A DNA stretch of 64,000 bases from Brenneria salicis ATCC 15712 = DSM 30166. GTDB lineage: Bacteria; Pseudomonadota; Gammaproteobacteria; Enterobacterales; Enterobacteriaceae. Positions 17,307 to 34,960 of this stretch are shown here, one piece after another. The stretch covers positions 1 through 64,000 of the forward strand of contig NZ_QNRY01000017.1 of NCBI RefSeq assembly GCF_003315515.1. Reading direction: 5' to 3'. A program made the position numbers and the translations under genes. The stretch's first letter is position 1. Each line of letters starts with the position of its first letter. The notes below the pieces were generated by a model. That model ran no database searches. It worked only from the letters and a program-made list of their open reading frames with translations, and was not told the origin of the DNA.

Positions 17307-19356
17307 ATGCCAGCATCCGATATCACGACCAAATCCGCTCAGGATCGCCTGAATCCTGTCGTGTTCTATACATCAGCGGGATTAATCCTTACCTTCTCGC
17401 TGATGACCATTTTTTTTAACGACATCGCCAATATATGGATTACCCGCGCCCTCAACTGGGTATCCGCCACATTCGGGTGGTACTATCTGCTGGCCACTAC
17501 GCTCTATATCGTCTTTGTGATTTTTATTGCGTCATCCCGTTTTGGTTCGATCAAACTTGGGCCGGAACAGTCCAAACCTGAATTTAGTCTGTTAAGCTGG
17601 GCCGCCATGTTGTTCGCGGCGGGGATCGGCATTGACCTGATGTTTTTTTCCGTCGCCGAACCCATCACCCAGTACATGATGCCGCCAGAAGGACAGGGAC
17701 AAACGCTGGAAGCCGCTCGTCAGGCGATGGTATGGACGCTATTTCACTACGGACTGACCGGTTGGTCGATGTATGCGCTGATGGGCATCGCGCTGGGTTA
17801 CTTCAGCTATCGCTATAATCTACCGCTGACGATCCGCTCGGCGCTCTACCCCATTTTCGGCAAACGCATTAACGGCCCGATCGGACACAGCGTGGATATC
17901 GCGGCCGTGCTCGGCACCATTTTCGGTATTGCCACCACCCTGGGCATTGGCGTGGTACAGCTTAATTATGGTTTGAAGGTACTATTCCAGATCCCGGAAA
18001 ACCTCACGGTTCAGGCGTCGTTGATCCTACTTTCGGTTATCATGGCGACGGTCTCCGTTACCTCCGGGGTTAACCGCGGCATTCGCTTTCTGTCGGAATT
18101 GAATGTGCTTCTCGCGCTGGGGTTAATACTTTTTCTGCTGTTCTGGGGAGATACCGCGTTCTTGCTCAATGCGCTGGTACTGAACGTGGGTGACTATATC
18201 AACCGCTTCACCGGAATGACGTTGAACAGTTTTGCGTTTGATCGTCCAACGAAATGGATGAATAGCTGGACGCTGTTTTTCTGGGCCTGGTGAGTCGCCT
18301 GGGCGCCGTTCGTCGGTCTGTTTCTGGCGCGTATTTCACGTGGCCGCACCATTCGACAGTTCGTTGTCGGCACCCTGATTATCCCGTTCGTGCTCACCTT
18401 ATTGTGGTTATCCATTTTTGGCAACAGCGCGCTGTATCAGGTCATTCATGGCAATCTCGATTTTGCCAACGAGGTGATGCAATACCCTGAACGTGGATTT
18501 TACAGCCTGCTGGCACAGTATCCCGGTTTTAGCCTGAGCGCTTCCGTCGCAACCATAACCGGGTTATTGTTTTATGTTACGTCGGCAGATTCCGGTTCAC
18601 TGGTGTTGGGCAACTTTACTTCTCGTCTGGCCGATATCAATAACGACGCACCGAACTGGCTGCGTATTTTCTGGTCTGTCGCTATCGGTCTGCTGACTCT
18701 TGCCATGCTGATGACCAATGGCGTATCCGCGTTACAGAATACCACCGTGATTATGGGGCTACCTTTCAGCTTCGTTATTTTCTTCATCATGGCGGGTTTA
18801 TACAAATCGCTGCGGGTGGAAGATTATCGCAAAGCCAGTGCCCTGCAATCCTCCGCACCGATGCCTATATCGGGCGATGACCGCCTGATCTGGAAACAGC
18901 GAATTTCACGCGTGATGAATTTTCCCGGTAAGACCTATACCCAGAAAATGCTGGATAACATCTGTGCTCCCGCTATCTCCCGCTATGCAGGATGTTGCTC
19001 GTGAATTGACGTTGCGCGGCGCCCAGGTGCAGGTTAACGAGCTTCCTCCGGTTGAAGACGAACGGCTTAACCATCTTGAACTTCTGGTCGATTTGGGCGA
19101 TGAGCAGAACTTCCTGTATCAAATCTGGCCTCAACGCTATAGCATCCCGGCGTTCACCTATCGGGCACGCTCTGGAAAATCACATTACTATCGTCTGGAA
19201 ACGTTCTTGCTGGAAGGAAGTCAAGGGAATGATTTGATGGACTACAGCAAAGAGCAGATTATCAATGACATTCTGGATCAGTACGAACGTCACCTGAACT
19301 TCCTGCATATCAACCGGGAATCGCCCGGCAACACCCTAACGTTCCCCGACGCCTGA
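17307..19356 (+). pseudogene. betT: betT, choline transporter, inactivated by two lesions
   Basis: Intact BetT (BCCT family, proton-driven high-affinity choline uptake) is about 677 residues with 12 membrane helices. Here the frame from ATG 17307 meets TGA at 18291-18293, codon 329. That codon falls in LFFWAW*VAWAPFVGLFLAR, where relatives have Trp, so it is a TGG-to-TGA change. The same frame then continues with perfect BetT homology to 18960. A tandem 10-bp duplication (CTCCCGCTAT at 18967-18976 and 18977-18986) then shifts the frame by +1; the rest (MQDVARELTLRGAQ...GSQGNDLMDYSKEQ) is read in the next frame to 19356. Without the two changes the product would be 679 residues. The truncated product keeps roughly half of the membrane helices and is unlikely to work. 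Confidence 0.92.
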
Positions 19357-22527: not shown

Positions 22528-23250
22528 TTAAACATCATTCATTAATTTTACGCGCAGGCGCTTTATCGCCTGGCTATGCAACTGACTCACGCGTGACTCC
22601 CCTACTTCCAGAACCGCGCCGATCTCTTTCAAGTTCAGTTCTTCCTGGTAGTAAAGCGTCAGCACCAACTTTTCGCGTTCAGGCAGGTTTTCTATCGCTT
22701 CCATAACGCGATGACGCAAATTACCTTCCATCAGTTGGTGCAGCGGATTGGCATCTTCATTCCCTTCCAGCAGGGCTTCCGCGCTATCGCCGTGTTCTTC
22801 ACGCCATTCATCGTAAGAAAAGAGTTGGCTATTGTTCGTATCCAACAAAATCTGACGATATTCTTCTAACGTGATATCCAAAGACTGCGCCACTTCCTGC
22901 TCGGTAGGCGTTCTGCCAAGCTGCTGTTCAGCCCGTTGCATCGCCTGTGCCACTTCCCGCGCATTACGCCGCACGCTCCGTGGAGCCCAGTCGCGACTAC
23001 GCAATTCATCCAACATTGAGCCACGAATTCGTTGCACCGCATACGTCGTAAACGCCGTACCCTGTAAGGAATCGTAACGCTCAACGGCGCTGAGCAAGCC
23101 GATACTGCCAGCCTGAAGTAAATCATCCAACTCAACGCTCGCGGGGAGACGAACCTGTAAACGCAATGCCTCATGGCGCACTAATGGAACATAGCGCTTC
23201 CAAAGGGAGTTGTTATCCATTGTGCCTTCGGCGGTATACAGATCGCTCAC
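22528..23250 (-). CDS. fliA: Flagellar sigma factor FliA (sigma-28)
   Basis: 240-residue sigma-28, which directs RNA polymerase to class III flagellar promoters. Region 2 has LVRHEALRLQVRLPASVELDDLLQAGSIGLL and FTTYAVQRIRGSMLDELRSRDW. Region 4 has the helix-turn-helix NLKEIGAVLEVGESRVSQLHSQAIKRL. Start is a GTG at 23250, giving SDLYTAEGTMDNN as in relatives. FlgM, its anti-sigma factor, is encoded at 58801. Class III promoters matching its consensus are visible before fliC, fliD, flgK and flgM. Confidence 0.97.
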   Translation of the reverse strand: MSDLYTAEGTMDNNSLWKRYVPLVRHEALRLQVRLPASVELDDLLQAGSIGLLSAVERYDSLQGTAFTTYAVQRIRGSMLDELRSRDWAPRSVRRNAREVAQAMQRAEQQLGRTPTEQEVAQSLDITLEEYRQILLDTNNSQLFSYDEWREEHGDSAEALLEGNEDANPLHQLMEGNLRHRVMEAIENLPEREKLVLTLYYQEELNLKEIGAVLEVGESRVSQLHSQAIKRLRVKLMNDV

Positions 23251-23464: not shown

Positions 23465-23494
23465 AAAAGTGTGGCAGTGCCGCGCAGAAAATTA
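23465..23494. repeat. Direct repeat flanking the Rpn gene, copy 1
   Basis: 30 bases running from AAAAGTGTGG to AGAAAATTA; identical to copy 2 (24478-24507) at 25 of 30 positions by eye. It overlaps the rpn stop codon (23492-23494), so it sits immediately at the 3' end of the gene. Confidence 0.65.
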
Positions 23495-24406
23495 CTCTTT
23501 TACCGAGGATATCACTGTCTGCATATCATCATCAGACAGGTCTGTCATCTGCTGTACCTGTTGTTGCGTCATCCCATTTTTCAGTAACTGACGGGCAATG
23601 CGTAACGCACTGGCTTTCATGCCTTGCTCCAGGCCTTCAGCCAACCACTTTTCTTTTCCGTGTCGCATGCCTTTCTCAAATAACTCCTGTGCAATAGTTG
23701 CCATCTGCTCCCCTCCCGGATACGTTTCCAGCGTGTCAATAAACGACGATAAATCGGATGTCTGCCCTGCCTGCATGATATAAAACATCAACGCCCGTTG
23801 TTGCTTCAAGGGCAGCGACCACAATTCCATCAACATCCCGATATTCCGCGCCAATTCCAACATATCACGCGTGCGAATATGCTTTTGCACCAGTTCCAGC
23901 AGCGCTACCCGGCGATGAGTTTTGATTTCCTCATCCGGGATCACGGTTAAATCCACTAAGGGGAACGCGGTGGTATACAGTTGTCGCGCCAGCGCCGGAT
24001 CGCTGAAACTTTCCAGCCAGTTCAGACTGTAAGGATACGGACTACGCTCGCCATGATAAAACAGCAGCGGCACGACCAGCGGCAGGGTTCCGTTTCCCTG
24101 CGAAAGATGTTGCTGCATCGCCGCCAGCGCATAACGCAACAACCGGAACGCCATTAATTTGTCCGGTTTGCTCTGATGTTCGATTACGCAATAAATATAG
24201 CCTTTCCCCTGCGTGGTATGCAGCGAATAAAGTATATCCGATACGCGGGAACGTAACTTTTCATCCACAAACGAAGCGGATTCCCGTTTCAGCGTGTTGA
24301 AATCACAGTGCGCCAGAATATCCGGCGGCAGATGGATGGAGAGAAAATTCCGTGCGATAGCAATATCGCTGAGGAATTGTTTGAAGATCGCATCGTGCGA
24401 TTGCAT
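23492..24406 (-). CDS. Rpn-family recombination-promoting nuclease / putative transposase
   Basis: 304-residue protein of the Rpn/YhgA-like (transposase_31, PD-(D/E)XK) family. It starts MQSHDAIFKQFLSDIAIARNF and has the nuclease-core run DILYSLHTTQGKGYIYCVIEHQSKPD (about residues 57-82). Asp57 and the EHQSK motif are the expected catalytic residues. The helical C-terminus with EGLEQGMKASALRIARQLLKNGMT is typical. E. coli Rpn proteins promote RecA-independent recombination. ATG at 24404-24406 preferred over an upstream in-frame start. Flanked by 30-bp imperfect direct repeats and set between fliA and the flagellins, so it looks like an insertion into the flagellar locus. Confidence 0.88.
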   Translation of the reverse strand: MQSHDAIFKQFLSDIAIARNFLSIHLPPDILAHCDFNTLKRESASFVDEKLRSRVSDILYSLHTTQGKGYIYCVIEHQSKPDKLMAFRLLRYALAAMQQHLSQGNGTLPLVVPLLFYHGERSPYPYSLNWLESFSDPALARQLYTTAFPLVDLTVIPDEEIKTHRRVALLELVQKHIRTRDMLELARNIGMLMELWSLPLKQQRALMFYIMQAGQTSDLSSFIDTLETYPGGEQMATIAQELFEKGMRHGKEKWLAEGLEQGMKASALRIARQLLKNGMTQQQVQQMTDLSDDDMQTVISSVKE

Positions 24407-24699
24407 GGCCCGCTTCCCTGTGGTGATAGTCGTCAACTACCTTAGCGGACTGGCAATATCAGGGAAGCGGTAGGATGAAAAGTGTGGAAGCGTCTCGAAG
24501 AAAATTATGTATATTAATGAAAGTCCATCGCATTACGCGAAATATTATCATCTAAAAATTCAATTTTATTGTAGAACTTAAGATTATGTAGAATTTATGA
24601 TGATTGCTCGCCGTCTCCTGCCAAACCAAATTTAACGCCTATTACAATGCATTTATCCTTGGAAAACTTATTTTTAGTGTTTTTTATTATAATATTTTA
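24407..24699. other. 293-base AT-rich spacer between rpn and the second flagellin
   Basis: Apart from the direct-repeat copy at 24478-24507 and a T/A-rich tract near 24670-24700 that could help end flagellin transcription, I see no gene or structured element here. Confidence 0.5.
24478..24507. repeat. Direct repeat flanking the Rpn gene, copy 2
   Basis: 30 bases in the same orientation as copy 1, lying 72 bases upstream of the rpn start. On the gene's strand it reads like the stop-codon-proximal 3' flank of a vanished rpn copy, although no coding sequence precedes it. Confidence 0.65.
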
Positions 24700-26166
24700 T
24701 CACCGCTGCAATAACGCTAACACAGTCTTCGACACCTGATTTGCCTGTACCAGCACCGATGACGACGCCTGTTGTAATATTTGCTGCTTCGTCATGGCAG
24801 AAACTTCTTGCGCATAATCCGCATCCAGAATACGTGAACGTGCAGTGGAAGTGGCTAATGATATCTGCGCCAGAGTTGATCGGATCGATTCAAAGCGGTT
24901 CACCTGGCTGCCATACTCGCTGCGATAACCGTTTATTTTTTCTAATGCCTGATCAAAAGAAGCTAAGGCTTCATGAACCTGCTCAATCAGATCCAACCTC
25001 ACCTCTTTAAGCCCCAGAGACTCACTATCCGATGGTGTTGGGTTGATAGTAACCGCTTGTGCATCCTCACCATAATCGGCGCTAACCATAAGCGCGGCAG
25101 GAGTACTGACCGGCGGCAAAACCGATTCTGATGAGGGTAATTGCGACGAATCAGGCAATTCATCCCAGGTCGCCTCACCGATAAATACGCCTTGGCCGAT
25201 CACCATCACGATTAAATCTTCTGTCGTCTCATTAATATGAACACGCTCCTTGAATTTCATAACATTGATTCCATCGTTAAATTTTCTCGTGGATTTATCC
25301 TCATAACGGTCTCCATCACCACTATAAGTCATGGTCATTCCGTTATAAGAAACCAATGCACTACCGTTCAAATTAAAACTTTCACCTCCTTGAGCCAGAT
25401 TTTCGGCAGAATAATTCGCCGTGGGTAAAAAACCGTTATCTTCGGTTAAAACCAATGAATCCGCCAATGCCGCATCTGTTATGCCATTTTGTCGCCAGAC
25501 AATATCAGCATCAGTACCTTCCAATGGCGTTCCGACTACATGCCTTCCTTCACGATTAAAGATCTGAATATCATCGTCATAACTATATGAATTTATAGTA
25601 ATGGTTTAATTTTTAGCACCCGCAGGAATATAAGCCAATGAGACAGTACCGGAAATAAAGGAGCGGCTGGTTCCACTGGTAGGAAATTTTTCCGAAAGCG
25701 GCGGTGTATTTCCCAGATTAGGGGACACTTCTCGCTGAATGGAAGGCGCCAGCGGGTGTTTACCAAACGCGTTGGTGGAATAGGCAATGCGATCAATTTC
25801 ATCACGCAATTGCAGATATTCGGCATTTAGATTAGTACGGTCTGCATCCGACAGCATTCCGTTCGCCGCCTGAACCGCTAATACTCTTGAACGCTGTACC
25901 AGATTGTTAATTTCATCCAACCCGCCTTCCGCGGTTTGTATCAGACCGATACCGTCATTTAGCCCACGCGCGATAACATCATTGGCGTTCAGGTTGGCGG
26001 TCATACGATTGGCTATCGCCTGCCCCGCTGCATCATCCTTGGCGCTATTAATACGCATGCCGGAGGACAGGCGCTCGATAGCCTGGCTCAATGATGATAA
26101 ACCCATCTTTTGATTTTGCGCAGTAAAAGAGAGAAAATTTGTATTATTTGTATTAATAGAAGTCAT
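24700..26166 (-). pseudogene. Second flagellin gene, interrupted by an in-frame stop
   Basis: A single frame from ATG 26166 to the stop at 24700 spans 489 codons, but codon 187 (25606-25608) is TAA. The N-terminal part (MTSINTNNTNFLSF, IERLSSGMRINSAKDDAAGQAIANR) is a standard flagellin D0/D1 domain. After the stop the frame continues TITINSYSYDDDIQIFNREG, a central variable domain, and ends with the C-terminal D1/D0 (ARSRILDADYAQEVSAMTKQQILQQASSSVLVQANQ). Both ends needed for filament assembly are therefore present but separated. The change is one base from AAA, CAA or GAA. It differs strongly from fliC at 32382 and has no convincing sigma-28 promoter. Confidence 0.85.
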
Positions 26167-26333
26167 GATATGCCTGTTTAATATCATTATGCTGTCAGAC
26201 TCCACTAACAGCATCTGAATAATTTGCATACTAAGGACAAATAAAAATCACTTATAAAAAAACAGCGATTTTAGTTAGAAAGGACTACGGAGTAATTCAA
26301 ATCAAGAATAGCATTCTTGCCAGAATTTACGAT

Positions 26334-27536
26334 ATGATGAATACGTTAAGCCCGGGTGATTCGCTTGCTAATAGTATGCAGCAGCTTATGCGTAGGCTGC
26401 TTTTCCAACATCAATCTAATCGTATGGTTATGCCTGATATGCAAAATTCTAAAAATACCGACGACAATAACGCGCCTCTAATGATATCCGTCTGTATGAT
26501 CGTTAAAGACGAAGCGCAGCACCTGGAGAATACGCTCCGCTCCCTTGCTCAATATTTCGATGACATCGTCGTCGTTGATACCGGCTCAAACGACAACTCA
26601 AAGGAAATCGCTAGCTGTTTCACCAATAAAATTTATGATTTTCAATGGATAGCCGATTTCTCCGCAGCCAGAAATTATTCTTTGCAATTTGCAAAATATG
26701 ATTGGGTATTGGTTGTTGATGCGGATGAGGAACTCTCTTTTATCGATTTAACAGCTTTATCATCACTTATCGCTGCTCATCCAACAAGTATAGGAAGAGT
26801 CGAAAGAGTCGATTATATTGATGATCCAAACGGCGGCGATATTATTAGAGAGCGGATAAGCCGACTATTCAGAAAAGAACTTTATGTATATCGGGGCATC
26901 ATCCATGAACAAGTTTCCGCCCGAAGCACTGCAATACCGGTCAACCACTTTCAAGTGCCTATCAGACTGAACCATATTGGCTATCAAAAAAATATCCTGC
27001 ATAACAAAGATAAAATCGTTAGAAATATTACGATGCTAAAAACGGCAATCGATGAGAATCCCTCCGATCCCTATTTACACTATCAATTAGGCAAAAGTTA
27101 CTATCTGGCAAAAGACTATTTATTAGCCTCGGAAACTTTTAGCACGGCACTTGGCTATCAGACGGATTTTTCTTATGAATATAATGAGCAATTAATAGAA
27201 AGTTACGGCTATACACTTATTAATCTTGGTGAATATAAACAGGCTTTAAGCATTCTTGAGTATGAACAATACTGCCATTCAACAGATTTTACCTTCCTGA
27301 AAGCGCTGATATTAATGAATAATGGCGATCTCCAACAAGCAGTCAATATTTTCTTATCATGCACTCAGCTGCCGCCGGGACGCAGTGATGGCGTAAATAC
27401 TTATAAAGCCAATTATAATGTTGGCGTAATTCTGGAGTGCTCTGGGATGCTAAAGGAAGCCGTGAGTTTTTACCAGAAATGCGATAATTATAAGCCTGCG
27501 GTTGACGGCATTTTAAGGATTGGCAAACAAGTATAA
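26334..27536 (+). CDS. Family 2 glycosyltransferase with TPR-like C-terminal half
   Basis: 400-residue protein. A GT2 (GT-A) domain starts near residue 50: ISVCMIVKDEAQHLENTLRS, then FDDIVVVDTGSNDNS and the metal-binding WVLVVDADEELS near 121-132. The rest (about 240-395) is a run of TPR-like helical pairs such as YLHYQLGKSYYLAKDYLLASETF. This SunS-like GT2-TPR architecture occurs in enzymes that glycosylate peptides and in LPS transferases. The position next to flagellin genes suggests flagellin glycosylation, which is an inference. It diverges from the second flagellin; the coding sequence is clearly AT-rich. The start is uncertain because no strong ribosome site precedes 26334. Confidence 0.72.
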   Translation: MMNTLSPGDSLANSMQQLMRRLLFQHQSNRMVMPDMQNSKNTDDNNAPLMISVCMIVKDEAQHLENTLRSLAQYFDDIVVVDTGSNDNSKEIASCFTNKIYDFQWIADFSAARNYSLQFAKYDWVLVVDADEELSFIDLTALSSLIAAHPTSIGRVERVDYIDDPNGGDIIRERISRLFRKELYVYRGIIHEQVSARSTAIPVNHFQVPIRLNHIGYQKNILHNKDKIVRNITMLKTAIDENPSDPYLHYQLGKSYYLAKDYLLASETFSTALGYQTDFSYEYNEQLIESYGYTLINLGEYKQALSILEYEQYCHSTDFTFLKALILMNNGDLQQAVNIFLSCTQLPPGRSDGVNTYKANYNVGVILECSGMLKEAVSFYQKCDNYKPAVDGILRIGKQV

Positions 27537-27690: not shown

Positions 27691-28512
27691 TTAGCGTTTA
27701 TAAGCAAATAAATTTACTTTAGCATATTTCCCTTTTATGGTCTTAAGCATCGCGATAACCTTTATCTGGTCCTGTTCCATAAAATCAATTGGCGGACAGC
27801 CGTGCTTTTTTATAAAATGGTCAATGGCCGCGCTTTTTATATTTTCATAGTTATCTTTGCTGCATATCGTTGACTGTTTTTCACTCCAATCATCATCACC
27901 CAAATATTTTTCAGAATCAGGGATATCAGCAAAATAACCAAAAGGCGGATGCATTCCCGCTTTATAGGCTAAAACAGTATGATCGACATGCTCCATTGCA
28001 TTGTAATAGTTTTCATCCATCAAGCCAATTTTTTTAAGGCATTGAAGTGAATAGTAGGAGAATGCCCCGACACAAAAACCAAACAGCGGCAATTTAAACT
28101 CTTTATATGTTGCCACCAGATTGGGTGTCGGCATGTAACTCTCATCATGATTGCTATGACCATGCTGACTAAAGTTAAGATGCTGAATGCCCGTCACTTT
28201 GGAAATAAAGATATATTGCTCAAACACACGTTTATCTTTTATGTAGATATCATCTTCTATGATAAAGAAGTGATCCACTTTTCTATCAAGTAAGTACTGC
28301 AACGCTTTATTTTTACTTTTTCCCACACCCAGATTGACTTCATTCTTGATAATAGTGTGCGATATTGCATCGAATTGGGAAAAATCGTTTCCATCATTTA
28401 TAATGACAAATTCATCGATCACATCGAACGGCAAAGATTGATACAACCGCAGCAGACCATCTGGTCTGTTATAGGTTACAATGCCAACGCCTATTTTCTT
28501 TCCATTAATCAT
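27691..28512 (-). CDS. Glycosyltransferase, GT2-like
   Basis: 273-residue protein starting IGVGIVTYNRPDGLLRLYQSL, a GT-A nucleotide-sugar fold start. VIINDGND follows near residue 36 and the acidic FFIIEDDIYIKD near 82-93 takes the place of the DXD metal site. A later segment, MDENYYNAMEHVDHTVLAYKAG, resembles the acceptor side of capsule/O-antigen GT2 enzymes. The ATG follows GGGGGAATT, a good ribosome site. It is 24 bases downstream of the 1228-residue transferase on the same strand, so the two form an operon. AT-rich compared with the flagellar genes. Sugar and acceptor are unknown. Confidence 0.72.
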   Translation of the reverse strand: MINGKKIGVGIVTYNRPDGLLRLYQSLPFDVIDEFVIINDGNDFSQFDAISHTIIKNEVNLGVGKSKNKALQYLLDRKVDHFFIIEDDIYIKDKRVFEQYIFISKVTGIQHLNFSQHGHSNHDESYMPTPNLVATYKEFKLPLFGFCVGAFSYYSLQCLKKIGLMDENYYNAMEHVDHTVLAYKAGMHPPFGYFADIPDSEKYLGDDDWSEKQSTICSKDNYENIKSAAIDHFIKKHGCPPIDFMEQDQIKVIAMLKTIKGKYAKVNLFAYKR

Positions 28513-28536: not shown

Positions 28537-31500
28537 TCATGCTGGCAACCAAGCCTTCTGCCAATCCGCCAGTCCATCCCCTTCCAGCATCCAGTCGCGG
28601 TAAACCTCTGCGCGCAACTGATCACCCATTTTTTCACTCTCATCCATATCCGCCAGATGCATGCGAATAGCTTCCATCCAGTCTTTAAATCGATTATTTA
28701 CCCGTGTAACGGGCAAACCACAACGATAAGGTTCGATATCGGTACAAATCACTGGAATGCCGCAGGCTCCCAATTCCAGCAGACGCAAATTGCTTTTACA
28801 TTCGTTGAATTGGTTATATTCCAGCGGCACCAGCGCTAAATCTAAATTAAGGCTGGCGGTTTTTTGCGGGTAGTATTCGATGGGTACGCCGGCATGAAAC
28901 TCGCATTGAATACCTTCCGGTTTCATCCCCATAAATACCCATTCCACCTCATTTTCCAATTCTTTAATCACCGAACGCAGCAACATTAAGTCTCCCCGGT
29001 GGCTGCTGCCCCCGGCCCAACCGATACGGGGTTTACGCCCCTGCCGCCGCAGGCTGTTCAATCCTTTCCACCATGAAACAGGCAACCGATTACAGGCCAC
29101 ACGAATATCCGAATGATAAGCAGAATACGCGTCCGCCAACGCCGGAGTGGAAACCACCACCCAGTCAACAGACTCTAATGCGCGACGAAAATTCTTAATC
29201 CGCTCCTGCAAAAAGTTTTTTCTATTACCACTATTAATTGGAATGTTCAGGATGTAATCATCAAATTCCGCCACGATATGCGCATGAGTATATTGGCGGT
29301 ATCTTTTTACAATCTGTGGCATATGCGGCCCATAAGCTAACTGCGCAATAATCACGTCCGGCGAGAGGCGTTCCACATCCAGCACATCCGCCATACCATG
29401 TTTTAAACCGCCTTCTATATGCATTTCCTGCTCCAACGCCTGAAACGGGAACATGACCCGATAATGACCGCAACCATACCAGTCCGAGTGATTCGCCAAC
29501 ACTACCGGCAAAGGGCGACCAGGCAAAGGAAGCTGGCAACGCGCCATATCCGGCGCCAGACCAAACCCCGGCGCATTGCGGCCAAAATCCGGGTGATAAT
29601 GCGGGTCGTCGACTAACTGTGCAAACCATCGCTGATACAAGGGTTCGATATCCTGAATCCGGGGCATGGCGGATACCCCAAAGCGCGCCAGCAGACGAGA
29701 GGCGCCGCCCATATGACGGAGATGCGCATCCGGTGTCCATACCGTCAGATAGCCCTGTTGCTGTGCTTTCAAGGACAGATCGACATCGCCGAAATAGGCA
29801 GGAAATTGCTCCGCATCAAAGCCGCCTAATTCATTGAACACGTCGCGACGCATCATCATGCAGGCAGCGCTGACAGCGCCGGAATCATGTGTCACCTGCA
29901 AAAGCCGCATATATCCAGGCGCCTCTGCGTCCAATCCTTGAAAGGCGATTCCGGCGCTGCCGTTCAGTCCCAACACCATCCCCCCATGCTGAATGCGCCC
30001 ATCCTCAAAGGTCATTTTAGCGCCGACAATGCCGACCTCCGGGCGCAAAGCATGTTGCAGCAACGCTTGCAACCACTCGCCGTTCAATATCACCGTATCA
30101 TTGTTCAAAAATAGCAACACATCGCCATGAGCGTGCGTCGCTGCATAATTGTTGATGGCGGAAAAATTGAATTCCTCATGCCATTGCAGCACCCGTATCT
30201 GCGCCAACCCCATCTCAGCCAGACGTTGCAAAAACTGGCAGGCCCCCGGTTCAGTAGAACCATTATCCACCAGCAGCAGCTCGTAGCGGGAATACTGCGT
30301 TTTTTCCATCAAGCTTTCTACGCATTCGCTAAGCAACACCAGATGGTCACGCGTTGGAATGATGATAGAAACCAACGGTTGCAAGTCATGCTGATACTGA
30401 ATGCGCCACGTCCCTGCGCTGTTTCCCGGCACAATCGTTCCCTGGATCTGGCAGCGGGCCAGGTGACGGGCCAATATTTGAGGATAAGCAAGGGACAATT
30501 CGGCGCCGGATAAGCAGTCATACAGACTGTCACTGGTGTAGATCAGGACATCAGGGATATGCGCCACCGCCTGCGGACCGACCTGCTCGATTACTTGCCA
30601 CACCGTGTCGAACACTCCAAATATGCCCAACTGCACATCCATCCCCTGAGAGCGGCGCAGACTGTCAACACTCAGTGCCAGGTTACGTCCGATGTAAGGA
30701 TAACTACGCAACAAATCGATATTGCAGGCAGGTTTCAGTACCGGATTCACAACCTCGCCTTTCTGCCAGTGCGCCTCGTCCATATAGAACACCAGCGCCT
30801 GTTCATGACGTAGCCGATATTCGGCCAGCAACAGCAATGTTTGGGGCAAAAGCCGATCGCCGGCATGTAAGATCAAAAGAAATGAAGCAACGGTCTGCTC
30901 CACCAACCGGTTTATCTGAGAAATACCGCTATTATCCGCTGGCAGCCAGTTCACATCGCCCGGAATCTCCGCCGGACACTGCGCCGCGATCAAATAAACC
31001 TCACTGGCGGGTTGCCAGAGTTCTTGCACACTTTGCCAGGAGTTGACGATCGCCGCGGAAGATTCATCATCTCCCGCCACTATCGCGATCGCAGTCTGTC
31101 CGAGTTCCGGCTGATTATGGATATAAGCTTGTAAAAGTGCGCGTCGGGCCGGCGTGATCTGACGTTCGTCCAACCATTTGCCGACGGAATAAGCTGGTTT
31201 GGTTTTATCGCGTAACGTCTGGTTATGCAGCGTTAAACGCTGCCATTCCTGATCGGAAATCGTCTTTAGCGATGGCGCGGCAAGATTTTCAAGCAGTGTA
31301 GAAAGTTGCTCCGAAAGACGATAATTAACGGCATATTCTCCGCATGATCGCCGTGCCGACGCCAACGCGTTTGCATACCCGTCGACGATCTCACGCGCCG
31401 CATCATCAACGGATAAATCACGTGCCTGATGGTACGCGCGAAACAGATCAGGCTCCCATCGCCCCGTCCCCAAATACCCCAGAACCCCGTGACCGCGATA

Positions 31501-32223
31501 CAAATACACCGGAATGCCCGCGCACACGGCATATTGCGCAATCCGTCCGTTGGCGATAACGGCATCGTATTCATTCCATAACGCGGGCAGGTCGGGCATT
31601 ACCTGCTCACGCCTTTTTATATCGCATTGTACTCCCAGCGCCTGTAGCGCTTGCGCCAGCATAACGAAATGGTTATCCAGACGATCCACTACCAGCAGCA
31701 ATTTCTTTAATGCCACCGGTTTTTCATCAGGCCGCCACGGAACGAAATAACGTTCAGGCACCGGGTTGGCGAAGACGTTTATCAGCGCTTCGTTAATACC
31801 GCTGTCGCGCAAAAGATCTTTCATACCTGACACGCTGACCAGCACATTATCAGCCAACCGGTTTTCACACTGTATATCCGGCGGCATCTCTTCCCGTGTT
31901 TGCATCGCCAGGTGATGAAACAGGATCCGGCCAGATATACCACCATTCAGCAAGCGTGTCAGCAGCGCCGGACTGAGCGCGCCGTATTGCAACCAGAGCA
32001 GGTCGTACTCCCCGGCGTACTGGTACTCCTCATCATCGCTAATCCATAAAGGCGCATCGCCGAACTGCTGTTCAAAATCGTCTTTGAGCAGAGAAGTGTA
32101 GCGATGCGTATAGACATCCACTTGCCAGCCCCGCGCCAGAAACGCATCAATGACGTCACGCGTCGCCAACGCCTCATCGGAATAATCGGTCAACTGCAAC
32201 GTGGAAAGATAAACATGCGGCAT
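28537..32223 (-). CDS. Large multidomain glycosyltransferase (probable flagellin glycosylation)
   Basis: 1228-residue cytoplasmic protein with several transferase-like modules. Residues 1-320 look like a degenerate GT-B module and 370-600 a degenerate GT2-like module. Residues 616-850 are a clear GT2 domain (LVSIIIPTRDHLVLLSECVES, LLVDNGSTEPG, LLFLNNDTVILNGEW near 703-717, GGFDAEQFPAYFGDVDLSLK). Residues 905-1225 form a GT-B domain of glycosyltransferase family 1/4 type (RKPRIGWAGGSSHRGDL, PVICTDIEPYRCGLPVTR). Encoded directly beside fliC and followed by another transferase gene. Flagellin O-glycosylation is the likely role by position; the sugar is unknown. Base composition here is not AT-rich, unlike the two smaller transferases. 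Confidence 0.75.
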   Translation of the reverse strand: MPHVYLSTLQLTDYSDEALATRDVIDAFLARGWQVDVYTHRYTSLLKDDFEQQFGDAPLWISDDEEYQYAGEYDLLWLQYGALSPALLTRLLNGGISGRILFHHLAMQTREEMPPDIQCENRLADNVLVSVSGMKDLLRDSGINEALINVFANPVPERYFVPWRPDEKPVALKKLLLVVDRLDNHFVMLAQALQALGVQCDIKRREQVMPDLPALWNEYDAVIANGRIAQYAVCAGIPVYLYRGHGVLGYLGTGRWEPDLFRAYHQARDLSVDDAAREIVDGYANALASARRSCGEYAVNYRLSEQLSTLLENLAAPSLKTISDQEWQRLTLHNQTLRDKTKPAYSVGKWLDERQITPARRALLQAYIHNQPELGQTAIAIVAGDDESSAAIVNSWQSVQELWQPASEVYLIAAQCPAEIPGDVNWLPADNSGISQINRLVEQTVASFLLILHAGDRLLPQTLLLLAEYRLRHEQALVFYMDEAHWQKGEVVNPVLKPACNIDLLRSYPYIGRNLALSVDSLRRSQGMDVQLGIFGVFDTVWQVIEQVGPQAVAHIPDVLIYTSDSLYDCLSGAELSLAYPQILARHLARCQIQGTIVPGNSAGTWRIQYQHDLQPLVSIIIPTRDHLVLLSECVESLMEKTQYSRYELLLVDNGSTEPGACQFLQRLAEMGLAQIRVLQWHEEFNFSAINNYAATHAHGDVLLFLNNDTVILNGEWLQALLQHALRPEVGIVGAKMTFEDGRIQHGGMVLGLNGSAGIAFQGLDAEAPGYMRLLQVTHDSGAVSAACMMMRRDVFNELGGFDAEQFPAYFGDVDLSLKAQQQGYLTVWTPDAHLRHMGGASRLLARFGVSAMPRIQDIEPLYQRWFAQLVDDPHYHPDFGRNAPGFGLAPDMARCQLPLPGRPLPVVLANHSDWYGCGHYRVMFPFQALEQEMHIEGGLKHGMADVLDVERLSPDVIIAQLAYGPHMPQIVKRYRQYTHAHIVAEFDDYILNIPINSGNRKNFLQERIKNFRRALESVDWVVVSTPALADAYSAYHSDIRVACNRLPVSWWKGLNSLRRQGRKPRIGWAGGSSHRGDLMLLRSVIKELENEVEWVFMGMKPEGIQCEFHAGVPIEYYPQKTASLNLDLALVPLEYNQFNECKSNLRLLELGACGIPVICTDIEPYRCGLPVTRVNNRFKDWMEAIRMHLADMDESEKMGDQLRAEVYRDWMLEGDGLADWQKAWLPA

Positions 32224-32333: not shown

Positions 32334-32357
32334 AAAAAACCCGGCGTTGCCGGGTTT
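32334..32357 (-). terminator. Rho-independent terminator of fliC
   Basis: On the minus strand AAACCCGGC/GCCGGGTTT with a short AAC loop is followed by six T residues, 25 bases after the fliC stop. It insulates the glycosyltransferase operon from the very strong fliC transcription. Confidence 0.92.
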
Positions 32358-32381: not shown

Positions 32382-33257
32382 TTATTGCAGCAGAGACAGA
32401 ACAGTCTGCGGAACCTGGTTGGCCTGAGACAGTACAGAAGTACCAGCCTGTTGCAGAATCTGCGCCCGACTCATGTTGGACACTTCCGTCGCGTAGTCTG
32501 CGTCTTGAATACGGCTGCGAGCGGCAGACAGGTTGTTAATGGAGTTGTTCAGGTTAGTGATGGTGGATTCGAAACGGTTCTGAATCGCACCCAGGTTGCT
32601 ACGTGCGGTATCCACGCTTTGCAGAGCGGTATCAACCGCGTCAACGATAGTCTGAGCCAAGCCACCGCTACCACCAACAGCACCGCTTAAATCAGCTGCA
32701 AGAGCAGTTACAGCGGCAGCGACACCACTTGCCAGGCCGCCACCTGTGGTAGCATTGACCAGTGCGCCTGAGTCAATGGTGATAACTTCGTCAGAACCGG
32801 TATTAGCGCCAACCTGAATGCTGATGCCGCCGGAAGCGGAACCGTCCAGCAGTTTGGTGCTGTTGAAAGTTGCAGAGCTGGCTACACGGTTGATTTCGTC
32901 CAGACGCTGTTGCATTTCAGTCGCGATTGATTCACGGTCAGTTGAACTGTTGGTATCGTTAGCCGCCTGAACCGCCAATTCACGGATACGTTGCAGGTTG
33001 TTGTTGATTTCGTTCAGGTTGCCTTCGGCAGTTTGCGTCAGAGAGATACCATCGTTGGCGTTACGGGCAGCCTGAGTCAGACCTTTAACCTGAGCGGTCA
33101 TACGGTTGATAATCGACTGGCCGGTAGCGTCGTCTTTGGCGCTGTTGATACGCTGGCCGGAAGACAGACGTTCGATGGCGGTACCCAGAGAAGACTGAGA
33201 TTTGTTCAGGTTGTTCTGAGTCGTCAGAGACATGATGTTAGTATTGATTACTGCCAT
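32382..33257 (-). CDS. fliC: Flagellin FliC
   Basis: 291-residue flagellin, the filament subunit. N-terminal D0/D1: AVINTNIMSLTTQNNLNKSQ and IERLSSGQRINSAKDDATGQ. C-terminal D1/D0: ARSRIQDADYATEVSNMSRAQILQQAGTSVLSQANQ. The middle (about 135-200) is only a short Ala/Gly/Ser/Thr-rich stretch, so the outer D2/D3 domains of longer flagellins are missing. Many Ser/Thr there could be glycosylation targets. A consensus sigma-28 promoter lies at 33328-33354 and a strong terminator follows. It diverges from fliD. Confidence 0.97.
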   Translation of the reverse strand: MAVINTNIMSLTTQNNLNKSQSSLGTAIERLSSGQRINSAKDDATGQSIINRMTAQVKGLTQAARNANDGISLTQTAEGNLNEINNNLQRIRELAVQAANDTNSSTDRESIATEMQQRLDEINRVASSATFNSTKLLDGSASGGISIQVGANTGSDEVITIDSGALVNATTGGGLASGVAAAVTALAADLSGAVGGSGGLAQTIVDAVDTALQSVDTARSNLGAIQNRFESTITNLNNSINNLSAARSRIQDADYATEVSNMSRAQILQQAGTSVLSQANQVPQTVLSLLQ

Positions 33258-33327: not shown

Positions 33328-33354
33328 TTATCGGAATGCTTTTGGGAAGCTTTA
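33328..33354 (-). promoter_or_regulatory. Sigma-28 promoter of fliC
   Basis: On the minus strand TAAAGCTT, an 11-base spacer and TCCGATAA, against the consensus TAAAGTTT-N11-GCCGATAA. It ends 71 bases before the fliC start. Confidence 0.9.
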
Positions 33355-33559: not shown

Positions 33560-34960
33560 ATGGCAAATATTTCATCTTTGGGGGTCGGTTCCGGCCTGGA
33601 CTTAAGTACGCTGATCACCAAGATTCAGACGGTGGAAGAACAAACGCGCCTGACGCCTATCACCACTCAGCAAACCAGTTATAAAGCGCAACTTAGCGGC
33701 GTCAGCGCGCTCAAAAGCGCCCTTGATAAACTGAACACCGCCACCAATGCGTTGGCCAAGTCGGAATCCTTCGGCATTACCGCAGGTTCAATCGATGCTA
33801 TCAATAATACTTCGGTTACAAGCACCAACACCGCGTTCACCGCCACCACGGACAGTAAAGCGGTAGCGGGTAACTATAGCGTCAGCGTCAGTCAACTCGC
33901 TCAGGCCCATTCCATTCTTTCAGCCACGCACAACAGCGCAACCGACGCGCTGGGAAGCGCCGACGGCACGCTGACCATCACTCAGGCCAATGGCGAGAAG
34001 CTCGAAATCGCCCTTACTGGCGGTGAAACATCGTTGAATGATGTGCGCGACGCCATCAATAAGTCAGAAGGCGGGGTGAGCGCCAGCGTAATCAAGGCAA
34101 ACGACAATAACTACTATTTGATGCTAACGGCGAAAGATACCGGCACCGAGTCAGCGATCACCGTAGAAGACAGCAGCGGAACGTTGGGTAATTTCACGCA
34201 GCAGGTGGCGGCGCAAAACGCCTTAATCTCCATCAACGGCATTGAGGTCGAACGCCAGAGCAACACCATCGACGACGCGCTGGAAGGCGTTACGCTGACG
34301 TTGAAGGCCACCACCACAGAAGGCAAGCCGGAAACGCTGGATATTTCCCAGGACATCACCGGCATGAAAGATGCCATTACCGCCTGGGTAAACGCCTATA
34401 ACTCGGTGTTGGACGTCATCTCCGCCCAAACCAAATACACGGCGGTTGAAGCCGGGGAAGAACAGAGCAGTAGTAACGGTTCGTTGATTGGCGATAGCAC
34501 GGTGCGCGGCATTCAGAGTCAACTGAGAAGCTACCTGACCACCATTCAAAGCGAAAGCGGCGATTTCAGCATTATGGCGGATCTGGGGATCACTCAGAAT
34601 TATAAAACCGGCAAGCTGGAAATTGACAATGCCACGCTGGAAAAAGCGCTGAAGGAAGAACCGGGCAACGTCAAAGCGTTTTTCGTCGGCGACAGTAAGG
34701 AAACCGGCCTGGCCACACAAGTCCGCAGCTATCTGCAAGATGTGCTGGATACGACGGATGGGGTGCTGAAAACCAAAGAAGATGGCATCAATACCACGTT
34801 GAAAAAGCTGGATACGCAATATACTCAGGCCGAAGCCGCCATTGAAGCCTTGATCACCCGCTATCAGACCCAATTCACCAAGCTGGACTCGCTTTTGTCG
34901 CAGAACAACAATACCTTAAGCTATCTGACGCGGCAGTTCAGTTCAACCAGCAGCAGCTAA
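33560..34960 (+). CDS. fliD: Flagellar filament cap FliD
   Basis: 466-residue hook-associated protein 2, the pentameric cap under which flagellin folds at the filament tip. The FliD N-terminal domain starts NISSLGVGSGLDLSTLITKIQ; the C-terminal coiled coil (about 400-460) includes LDTQYTQAEAAIEALITRYQTQFTKLDSLLSQ. The usual FliD ending LSYLTRQFSS is present. Read from its own sigma-28 promoter, with fliS 16 bases downstream and then fliT. Confidence 0.96.
   Translation: MANISSLGVGSGLDLSTLITKIQTVEEQTRLTPITTQQTSYKAQLSGVSALKSALDKLNTATNALAKSESFGITAGSIDAINNTSVTSTNTAFTATTDSKAVAGNYSVSVSQLAQAHSILSATHNSATDALGSADGTLTITQANGEKLEIALTGGETSLNDVRDAINKSEGGVSASVIKANDNNYYLMLTAKDTGTESAITVEDSSGTLGNFTQQVAAQNALISINGIEVERQSNTIDDALEGVTLTLKATTTEGKPETLDISQDITGMKDAITAWVNAYNSVLDVISAQTKYTAVEAGEEQSSSNGSLIGDSTVRGIQSQLRSYLTTIQSESGDFSIMADLGITQNYKTGKLEIDNATLEKALKEEPGNVKAFFVGDSKETGLATQVRSYLQDVLDTTDGVLKTKEDGINTTLKKLDTQYTQAEAAIEALITRYQTQFTKLDSLLSQNNNTLSYLTRQFSSTSSS

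Follow-up and report, generated by a model that had tools for sequence, protein, structure and literature searches.

A four-module glycosyltransferase beside fliC of Brenneria salicis as a probable FgtA-type flagellin glycosyltransferase

A 64,000-nucleotide stretch of the Brenneria salicis ATCC 15712 = DSM 30166 genome (contig NZ_QNRY01000017.1, positions 1 to 64,000; hereafter the window) carries, directly downstream of the flagellin gene fliC and 158 bases from it, a gene for a 1228-residue multidomain glycosyltransferase (GT) that we call the large GT. We propose, with a probability of roughly 80%, that this protein, the product of a fliC-fliA flagellin glycosylation island, O-glycosylates flagellin in the cytoplasm, and that it combines an FgtA-type core (a degenerate GT-A, a GT2 and a C-terminal GT-B module) with a GT4-like GT-B in its N-terminal slot. 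The observations behind this proposal are predicted folds, motif conservation, synteny, homology to the FgtA-type core and the presence of two dTDP-rhamnose genes; from these we infer the cellular location, the substrate, the sugars and the order of the steps.

Predicted folds and the FgtA-type core

The gene is one uninterrupted frame, as the original prediction from the DNA letters had read it, and the large GT was the sole match to itself in its own genome at E-values up to 0.001. The prediction had described a clear GT2 domain and a clear C-terminal GT-B domain preceded by degenerate GT-B- and GT2-like regions, and profiles recovered both clear domains. PF00535 matched residues 619-799 in module 3 (E 3.8e-18; 66.4 bits against a Pfam cut-off of 23.3), and phrog_7162 matched residues 913-1210 in module 4 (E 8.1e-39), where Pfam gave only a sub-cut-off match to PF13524. 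The GT2 matches from NCBIfam lay far below every cut-off. A profile search suggested for residues 1-600, run here on residues 1-615, found no Pfam family at E-values up to 0.01. PF13439 (Glyco_transf_4) appeared for this piece in two of 24 aligned full-length rows (best E 9.2e-4), and for the whole large GT at E 0.0026, under its cut-off. Modules 1 and 2 are thus nearly unseen by profiles.

We modelled the protein with AlphaFold2 in two pieces, using alignments built from the fetched relatives. The piece covering residues 1-615 reached a mean predicted local distance difference test score (pLDDT) of 87.9 and a predicted template modelling score (pTM) of 0.67, and the piece covering residues 335-1228 reached 92.0 and 0.88. 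Four glycosyltransferase folds are predicted along the large GT (GT-B, GT-A, GT-A and GT-B, from the N-terminus), which agrees with the suspected degenerate modules in its first half. These were compared with solved structures in VIA-align, whose coverage is the set of chains ranked highest by Foldseek, so that absence there carries no meaning. Residues 1-318 resembled the GT-B enzymes TarM (Z 18.3), BshA (18.2), PimA (18.0) and HepE (17.6), and residues 345-614 the GT-A enzymes K4 chondroitin polymerase (K4CP; Z 19.9), heparosan synthase 2 (18.4) and WrtF (17.9). Residues from about 600 to 889 resembled GT-A polypeptide GalNAc-transferases (Z 23.6), and residues 903-1228 GT-B/GT4 enzymes, led by BA1558 (Z 25.3; root-mean-square deviation 2.8 Å over 300 residues). 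K4CP and heparosan synthase 2, leading Foldseek matches, also have two GT-A modules per chain. They are, however, polysaccharide polymerases without such GT-B modules, and whole-chain template modelling scores against these polymerases were low, at 0.19-0.34 where listed, and the likeness thus lies in single modules, not in the whole chain.

The closest likeness to a flagellin glycosyltransferase came from Pseudomonas aeruginosa. A protein search of plasmid records returned a 1694-residue protein (locus L102, 5520-10604), to which residues 350-1227 of the large GT aligned at 41% identity (358 of 883 columns, E 1e-172). Its gene stands last in the order methyltransferase, HAD phosphatase, NTP transferase and CDP-glycerol phosphotransferase family, followed by a B-type fliC. 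This order fits PA1088-PA1091 as described in PMC11833859, and from gene order and annotation we infer that the protein is PA1091, or FgtA. In PAO1, the flagellin peptide of a pa1091 mutant is reported as predominantly unglycosylated, while pa1088 to pa1090 mutants keep a deoxyhexose, described as probably rhamnose; the same account classes FgtA as a GT2 enzyme and calls its two activities hard to separate (PMC11833859).

On sequence comparison, the three-module core is not new: the FgtA-type protein and the large GT have both the core and a fliC neighbour in common. They differ at two places. The N-terminal slot holds a GT-B in the large GT and a CDP-glycerol-type phosphotransferase (PF04464, residues 263-496) in the FgtA-type protein; this phosphotransferase module, a trait of the bifunctional FgtA, is absent from residues 1-615 of the large GT, as judged by the Pfam search above. 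In addition, the FgtA-type protein reads GAG where the large GT has N707-N-D709. The large GT is very probably an FgtA-core flagellin glycosyltransferase in an enterobacterial island, with a different N-terminal module. The original claim that no characterised enzyme has exactly its layout went uncontradicted in titles and abstract openings of the open-access literature, a scope outside which most subscription papers lie, although the core itself is known from the FgtA type.

Flagellin adjacency, catalytic motifs and proposed steps

In 24 of 27 full-length relatives the gene has a flagellin gene as its neighbour, no more than 819 bases away; the other three loci offer at most 510 bases of upstream sequence. 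This count excludes the copy in the window and was made before merging, so that near-duplicates of the 23 distinct relatives are included. At class level we fetched 29 loci (L048-L076) with 1.5 kb flanks, of which 26 passed the coverage filter (L063, L071 and L076 failed). Flagellin adjoins the core gene in 17 of these 26 relatives from outside the family, at 34-946 bases with the core gene upstream on the same strand; with flanks of this length a farther flagellin would escape notice, and many N-termini are truncated. In three Castellaniella (Alcaligenaceae) loci the gene and flagellin converge at a distance of 140-163 bases. Together with the homology to the FgtA-type core, this adjacency makes the predicted flagellar role of the large GT well supported.

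Matches at E-values up to 1e-30 were found in 62 of 369 genomes sampled at class level (our own included), many of them confined to the two GT-A modules (approximately residues 430-890). In the family, 43 of 198 genomes matched at E-values up to 0.001, many through weak GT2 similarity alone.

The large GT might instead only extend a glycan begun by one of two neighbouring transferases, the GT2-TPR (tetratricopeptide repeat) protein or the GT2-like protein (Table 1), and never touch flagellin itself. TPR-carrying GTs such as FlmG are known flagellin-modifying enzymes, and loci of Pectobacterium and Samsonia have the GT2-TPR gene as well. We nevertheless consider this unlikely. Of the full-length loci, 17 offer at least 7.3 kb of downstream sequence, and 9 of these (L022, L023, L030, L031, L033, L034, L035, L043 and L044) show neither neighbour, whereas flagellin turns up in all full-length loci that extend beyond 510 bases upstream. 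Loss of the presumed homologue pa1091 also leaves flagellin unglycosylated (PMC11833859).

We next consider which modules of the large GT are likely to act as catalysts. Motifs were read from a 72-row alignment, consisting of the 71 rows of alignment A2 (fragment L027 left out) and the P. aeruginosa protein; alignment A4 comprises 29 of the 71 A2 rows. A second set of 24 rows holds the large GT and 23 distinct relatives, merged from 28 full-length open reading frames (ORFs) including our own copy. Module 3 keeps its [ND]xD motif in 50 of 72 rows and module 4 its [KR]-R-E set in 62. The two occur together in 44 rows; the GT-B set stands alone in 18, the GT2 motif alone in six, and neither is present in four. 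In an EX7E-type check of module 4, E1150 was found in 69 of 72 rows, and the first E position was C in 36 and A in 23.

The first two modules read differently. One possibility is that all four modules are catalytic, the large GT alone building a tri- or tetrasaccharide on flagellin. Four GT folds are modelled with good confidence, module 2 keeps Y480 (71/72) and D482 (72/72), and module 1 keeps H104, E120, G236, P238, G249 and Y250 in 23-24 of 24 rows. GT4 enzymes often carry a histidine at the place of H104, which itself is kept in 23. However, both metal-binding aspartates of module 2 (positions 453 and 455) are found together in none of the 72 rows, the large GT reading H453-A-G455; any DD or DxD within 447-461 occurs in only six. 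The EX7E motif of module 1 is absent from all 24 rows. Invariant positions in the 24-row set number 8 of 318, 16 of 256, 27 of 271 and 89 of 326 for modules 1 to 4, that is 2.5 and 6.2 per 100 in the first two modules against 10.0 and 27.3 in the last two. Four working transferases are therefore improbable, a little more so than a glycan begun by a neighbour, and of the four transferase modules originally suspected the folds stand, while four activities are not supported. Motif retention and conservation together point to modules 3 and 4, the two canonical ones, as the probable catalysts; modules 1 and 2 appear degenerate or non-canonical. The prediction that this chain could build an oligosaccharide by itself may hold for two sugars; two more GT genes adjoin it.

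For the large GT as a flagellin O-glycosyltransferase, we propose that module 4 would place the linking sugar on Ser/Thr residues of FliC in the cytoplasm, before export. This assignment is suggested because module 4 is by far the best conserved, and because the FgtA-type core lacks the GT2 motif, yet PAO1 flagellin carries a pa1091-dependent deoxyhexose. Module 3 would then add a second sugar, module 2 could serve as a non-catalytic GT-A scaffold or acceptor groove, and module 1 might add a terminal group through a non-canonical site or act as a recognition module. The adjoining GT2 and GT2-TPR genes may extend or vary the glycan. The linking sugar would most likely be a deoxyhexose such as rhamnose. 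This is a guess, made because Fgt1 of Pseudomonas syringae, whose gene lies upstream of fliC, is a rhamnose transferase acting on serine (PMC3927599), because the PAO1 deoxyhexose is probably rhamnose, and because rmlC and rmlD are found above cut-off in the same genome (rmlA and rmlB were outside the search). By description, the large GT is also like Fgt1 and Fgt2, which are flagellin GTs with genes upstream of fliC (PMC3927599).

It is very improbable that the large GT is a lipopolysaccharide, capsule or exopolysaccharide transferase merely near fliC: its top Foldseek matches do include K4CP and heparosan synthase 2, and GT2 and GT4 folds are typical of polysaccharide synthesis, but the gene adjoins flagellin in Enterobacterales, Alcaligenaceae and other class-level relatives, and a GT41 protein occupies the same site in three congeners.

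Several observations nonetheless weigh against a flagellin glycosyltransferase of this design. Neither end module reaches a solved relative by sequence profile, PDB searches with modules 4 and 1 giving no convincing match (best E 0.18 and 0.19). No flagellin gene lies within the short flanks of 9 of the 26 class-level relatives. The six rows with a GT2 motif and no GT-B set run counter to module 4 as the first transferase; of these, five represent the second core copy of an island, and the sixth differs by a conservative change. Several relatives next to flagellin whose GT2 is degenerate (L048, L064, L067 and L073) bear an additional N-terminal GT2-type module, and the FgtA-type protein contains at about residues 497-827 a stretch with no identified domain that includes 'VEDDG' and could be another transferase. 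Module 4 is therefore only a candidate initiator. Also, none of the six main frames of the fliC-fliA insert is a recognised sugar-biosynthesis gene, which leaves rhamnose as a guess from FgtA and Fgt1. Finally, a terminator-like stem separates fliC from the large GT gene, and a sigma-28 scan found no site directly upstream of the latter, so expression by read-through is an assumption; terminator-like stems in the region numbered 11 against 9.2 in shuffled sequence.

We also considered whether the FgtA-type protein has a single intact transferase, its C-terminal GT-B; the same 497-827 stretch weakens this idea.

Many islands contain second, diverged copies of the core (L022, L023, L025, L026, L031, L033, L037 and L044). 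In L031, L033 and L037 the second copy departs from the GT2 motif as well as from the GT-B motif, which suggests a partner without catalytic activity. One orthologue (G184, L012 338-4152) is spread over two frames split near residue 840, and the gene looks broken.

The fliC-fliA island and its variation

Flagellin glycosylation islands inserted between fliC and fliA form a recognised class, found in genera including Brenneria, Lonsdalea, Pectobacterium, Pantoea and Kosakonia (De Maayer and Cowan 2016, PMC4875605). In Dickeya dadantii, flagellin glycosylation from such an island, with different genes, was shown by mass (PMC6637903). The insert in the window resembles these islands in its position and its GT2-class enzymes (PMC4875605). 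Unlike them, it carries GTs and a second flagellin, with no recognised sugar-biosynthesis gene. Methyltransferase domains are described in GT41 enzymes and one GT2 enzyme of the islands, so island GTs with fused modification domains have precedents; the available parts of the survey make no mention of a chain of four GT modules (PMC4875605).

Table 1. Position of the large GT, its modules and the surrounding features in the window.
Feature	Coordinates	Strand	Remarks
1228-residue multidomain glycosyltransferase gene (large GT)	28537..32223	-	single ATG-initiated frame without internal stop; residue n starts at 32223-3(n-1)
Module 1, residues 1-318	31270..32223	-	GT-B fold, GT4-like, no EX7E motif; exchangeable N-terminal slot
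Module 2, residues 345-600	30424..31191	-	GT-A fold, degenerate; H453-A-G455 at expected metal-binding D-x-D
Module 3, residues 612-882	29578..30390	-	GT-A/GT2; N707-N-D709, D813-V-D815, H837
Module 4, residues 903-1228	28540..29517	-	GT-B/GT4 fold, most conserved part; K1143, R1147, E1150
fliC, 291-residue flagellin, presumed substrate	32382..33257	-	directly upstream of large GT
Sigma-28-like site upstream of fliC	33328..33354	-	1 mismatch to consensus
Terminator-like stem, 9 pairs	32337..32357	-	fliC/large GT gap; stem scan
273-residue GT2-like protein	27691..28512	-	orthologue directly after large GT in Erwinia, Tatumella, Mixta and P. fontis loci
400-residue GT2 + TPR protein	26334..27536	+	weakly SunS-like; profile matches
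Second flagellin frame	24700..26229	-	in-frame TAA at 25606-25608; ORF list and translation
fliA (sigma-28)	22528..23250	-	far island border
fliD	33560..34960	+	near island border

Three GT genes lie between fliC and fliA (from 32382 to 23250). The large GT does stand between fliC and a second flagellin, as had been claimed, although the other two GT genes intervene and the second flagellin frame is interrupted. Its in-frame TAA implies that this flagellin is probably not made full length, and the frame is possibly a second flagellin in decay. A homologue in a congener (L099 7896-9350) is uninterrupted, with 484 residues and 77-80% identity. The GT2-TPR protein matches the SunS family (TIGR04195) at 68.8 bits against a cut-off of 350, and could be a second flagellin glycosyltransferase. 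The insert also contains a YhgA-like putative transposase (23492-24436, minus strand; PF04754, E 7.9e-80).

Within the genus, a full-length copy was found in three of nine genomes, our own included, and one more has a relative of residues 343-1227 only. The other five have no such gene (one gave a weak match in the GT2 range). Three of these five carry at the same site a GT41 protein of 1108-1151 residues, the fourth has unscanned frames of matching length there, and the stretch fetched for the fifth contained no fliC. The site is thus swapped from species to species, as described for such islands. The SPINDLY-type GT41 flagellin GTs of these islands share with the large GT the site and the presumed job, but have an unrelated architecture of TPR and GT41.

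A UDP-glucose-dehydrogenase gene in a congener (G566, L084 2838-4176) adjoins a small remnant that matches the large GT C-terminus (62%, residues 1177-1224), upstream of a core-type GT, which looks like the footprint of an island replacement.

Elsewhere in the window, a BCCT-type transporter (17307-19356, plus strand) is apparently split over several ORFs, the first covering positions 1-311 of 485 of PF02028, and is possibly a broken gene.

An exchangeable N-terminal slot

We then looked at what precedes the core in its relatives. Of 46 available N-terminal pieces, 35 were scanned (34 of 45 and the P. aeruginosa protein). The slot held a GT2-type module in 21, a GT4/GT1-type GT-B in six, and a GT9, a methyltransferase, a CDP-type phosphotransferase and a module of the large-GT type (L040, by profile) in one each, with none recognised in four. 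Not every recognised domain adjoins the core directly. A profile of module 1 run against all 46 pieces or proteins reached L040 (E 1.7e-42) and nothing else below 0.07. Beyond L040, this search does not show N-terminal modules of core relatives to be homologous to module 1.

The slot labels were placed on a tree of the GT2 and GT-B part, a quick tree with several long branches, for the 59 of 72 rows whose N-terminus was scanned. With 'none' as one of seven labels, at least 13 changes are needed, against a minimum of 6. The labels are clustered, shuffled labels needing 28.1 changes on average and none of 200 shuffles as few, whereas the GT4 label is no more clustered than in shuffles. The best supported branches force at least eight gains or losses of the GT2 label and at least four of the GT4 label. 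Castellaniella GT2-type N-termini fall inside the large-GT-type group. These label changes support the repeated exchange of N-terminal modules on a conserved chassis.

From this we tentatively put forward, at slightly worse than even odds, a modular flagellin glycan synthase. Its three-module chassis would attach and extend the linking sugar, and a swapped N-terminal cassette (GT-B, GT2, GT4, GT9, methyltransferase or CDP-type phosphotransferase) would fix the outer group. Attachment would fall to the C-terminal GT-B rather than to the GT2 that gives FgtA its class. If this is true, the number of intact modules would predict the size of the glycan: one sugar and a phospho group for FgtA, and two sugars with a possible cap for the large GT.

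The activities of PA1091 are described as hard to dissect (PMC11833859), and the large GT offers a direct test of which FgtA-type module adds the first flagellin sugar. Flagellar glycans shape host recognition and vary strongly between strains. If a conserved core indeed carries an exchangeable N-terminal module, part of this variety could be readable from the gene alone.

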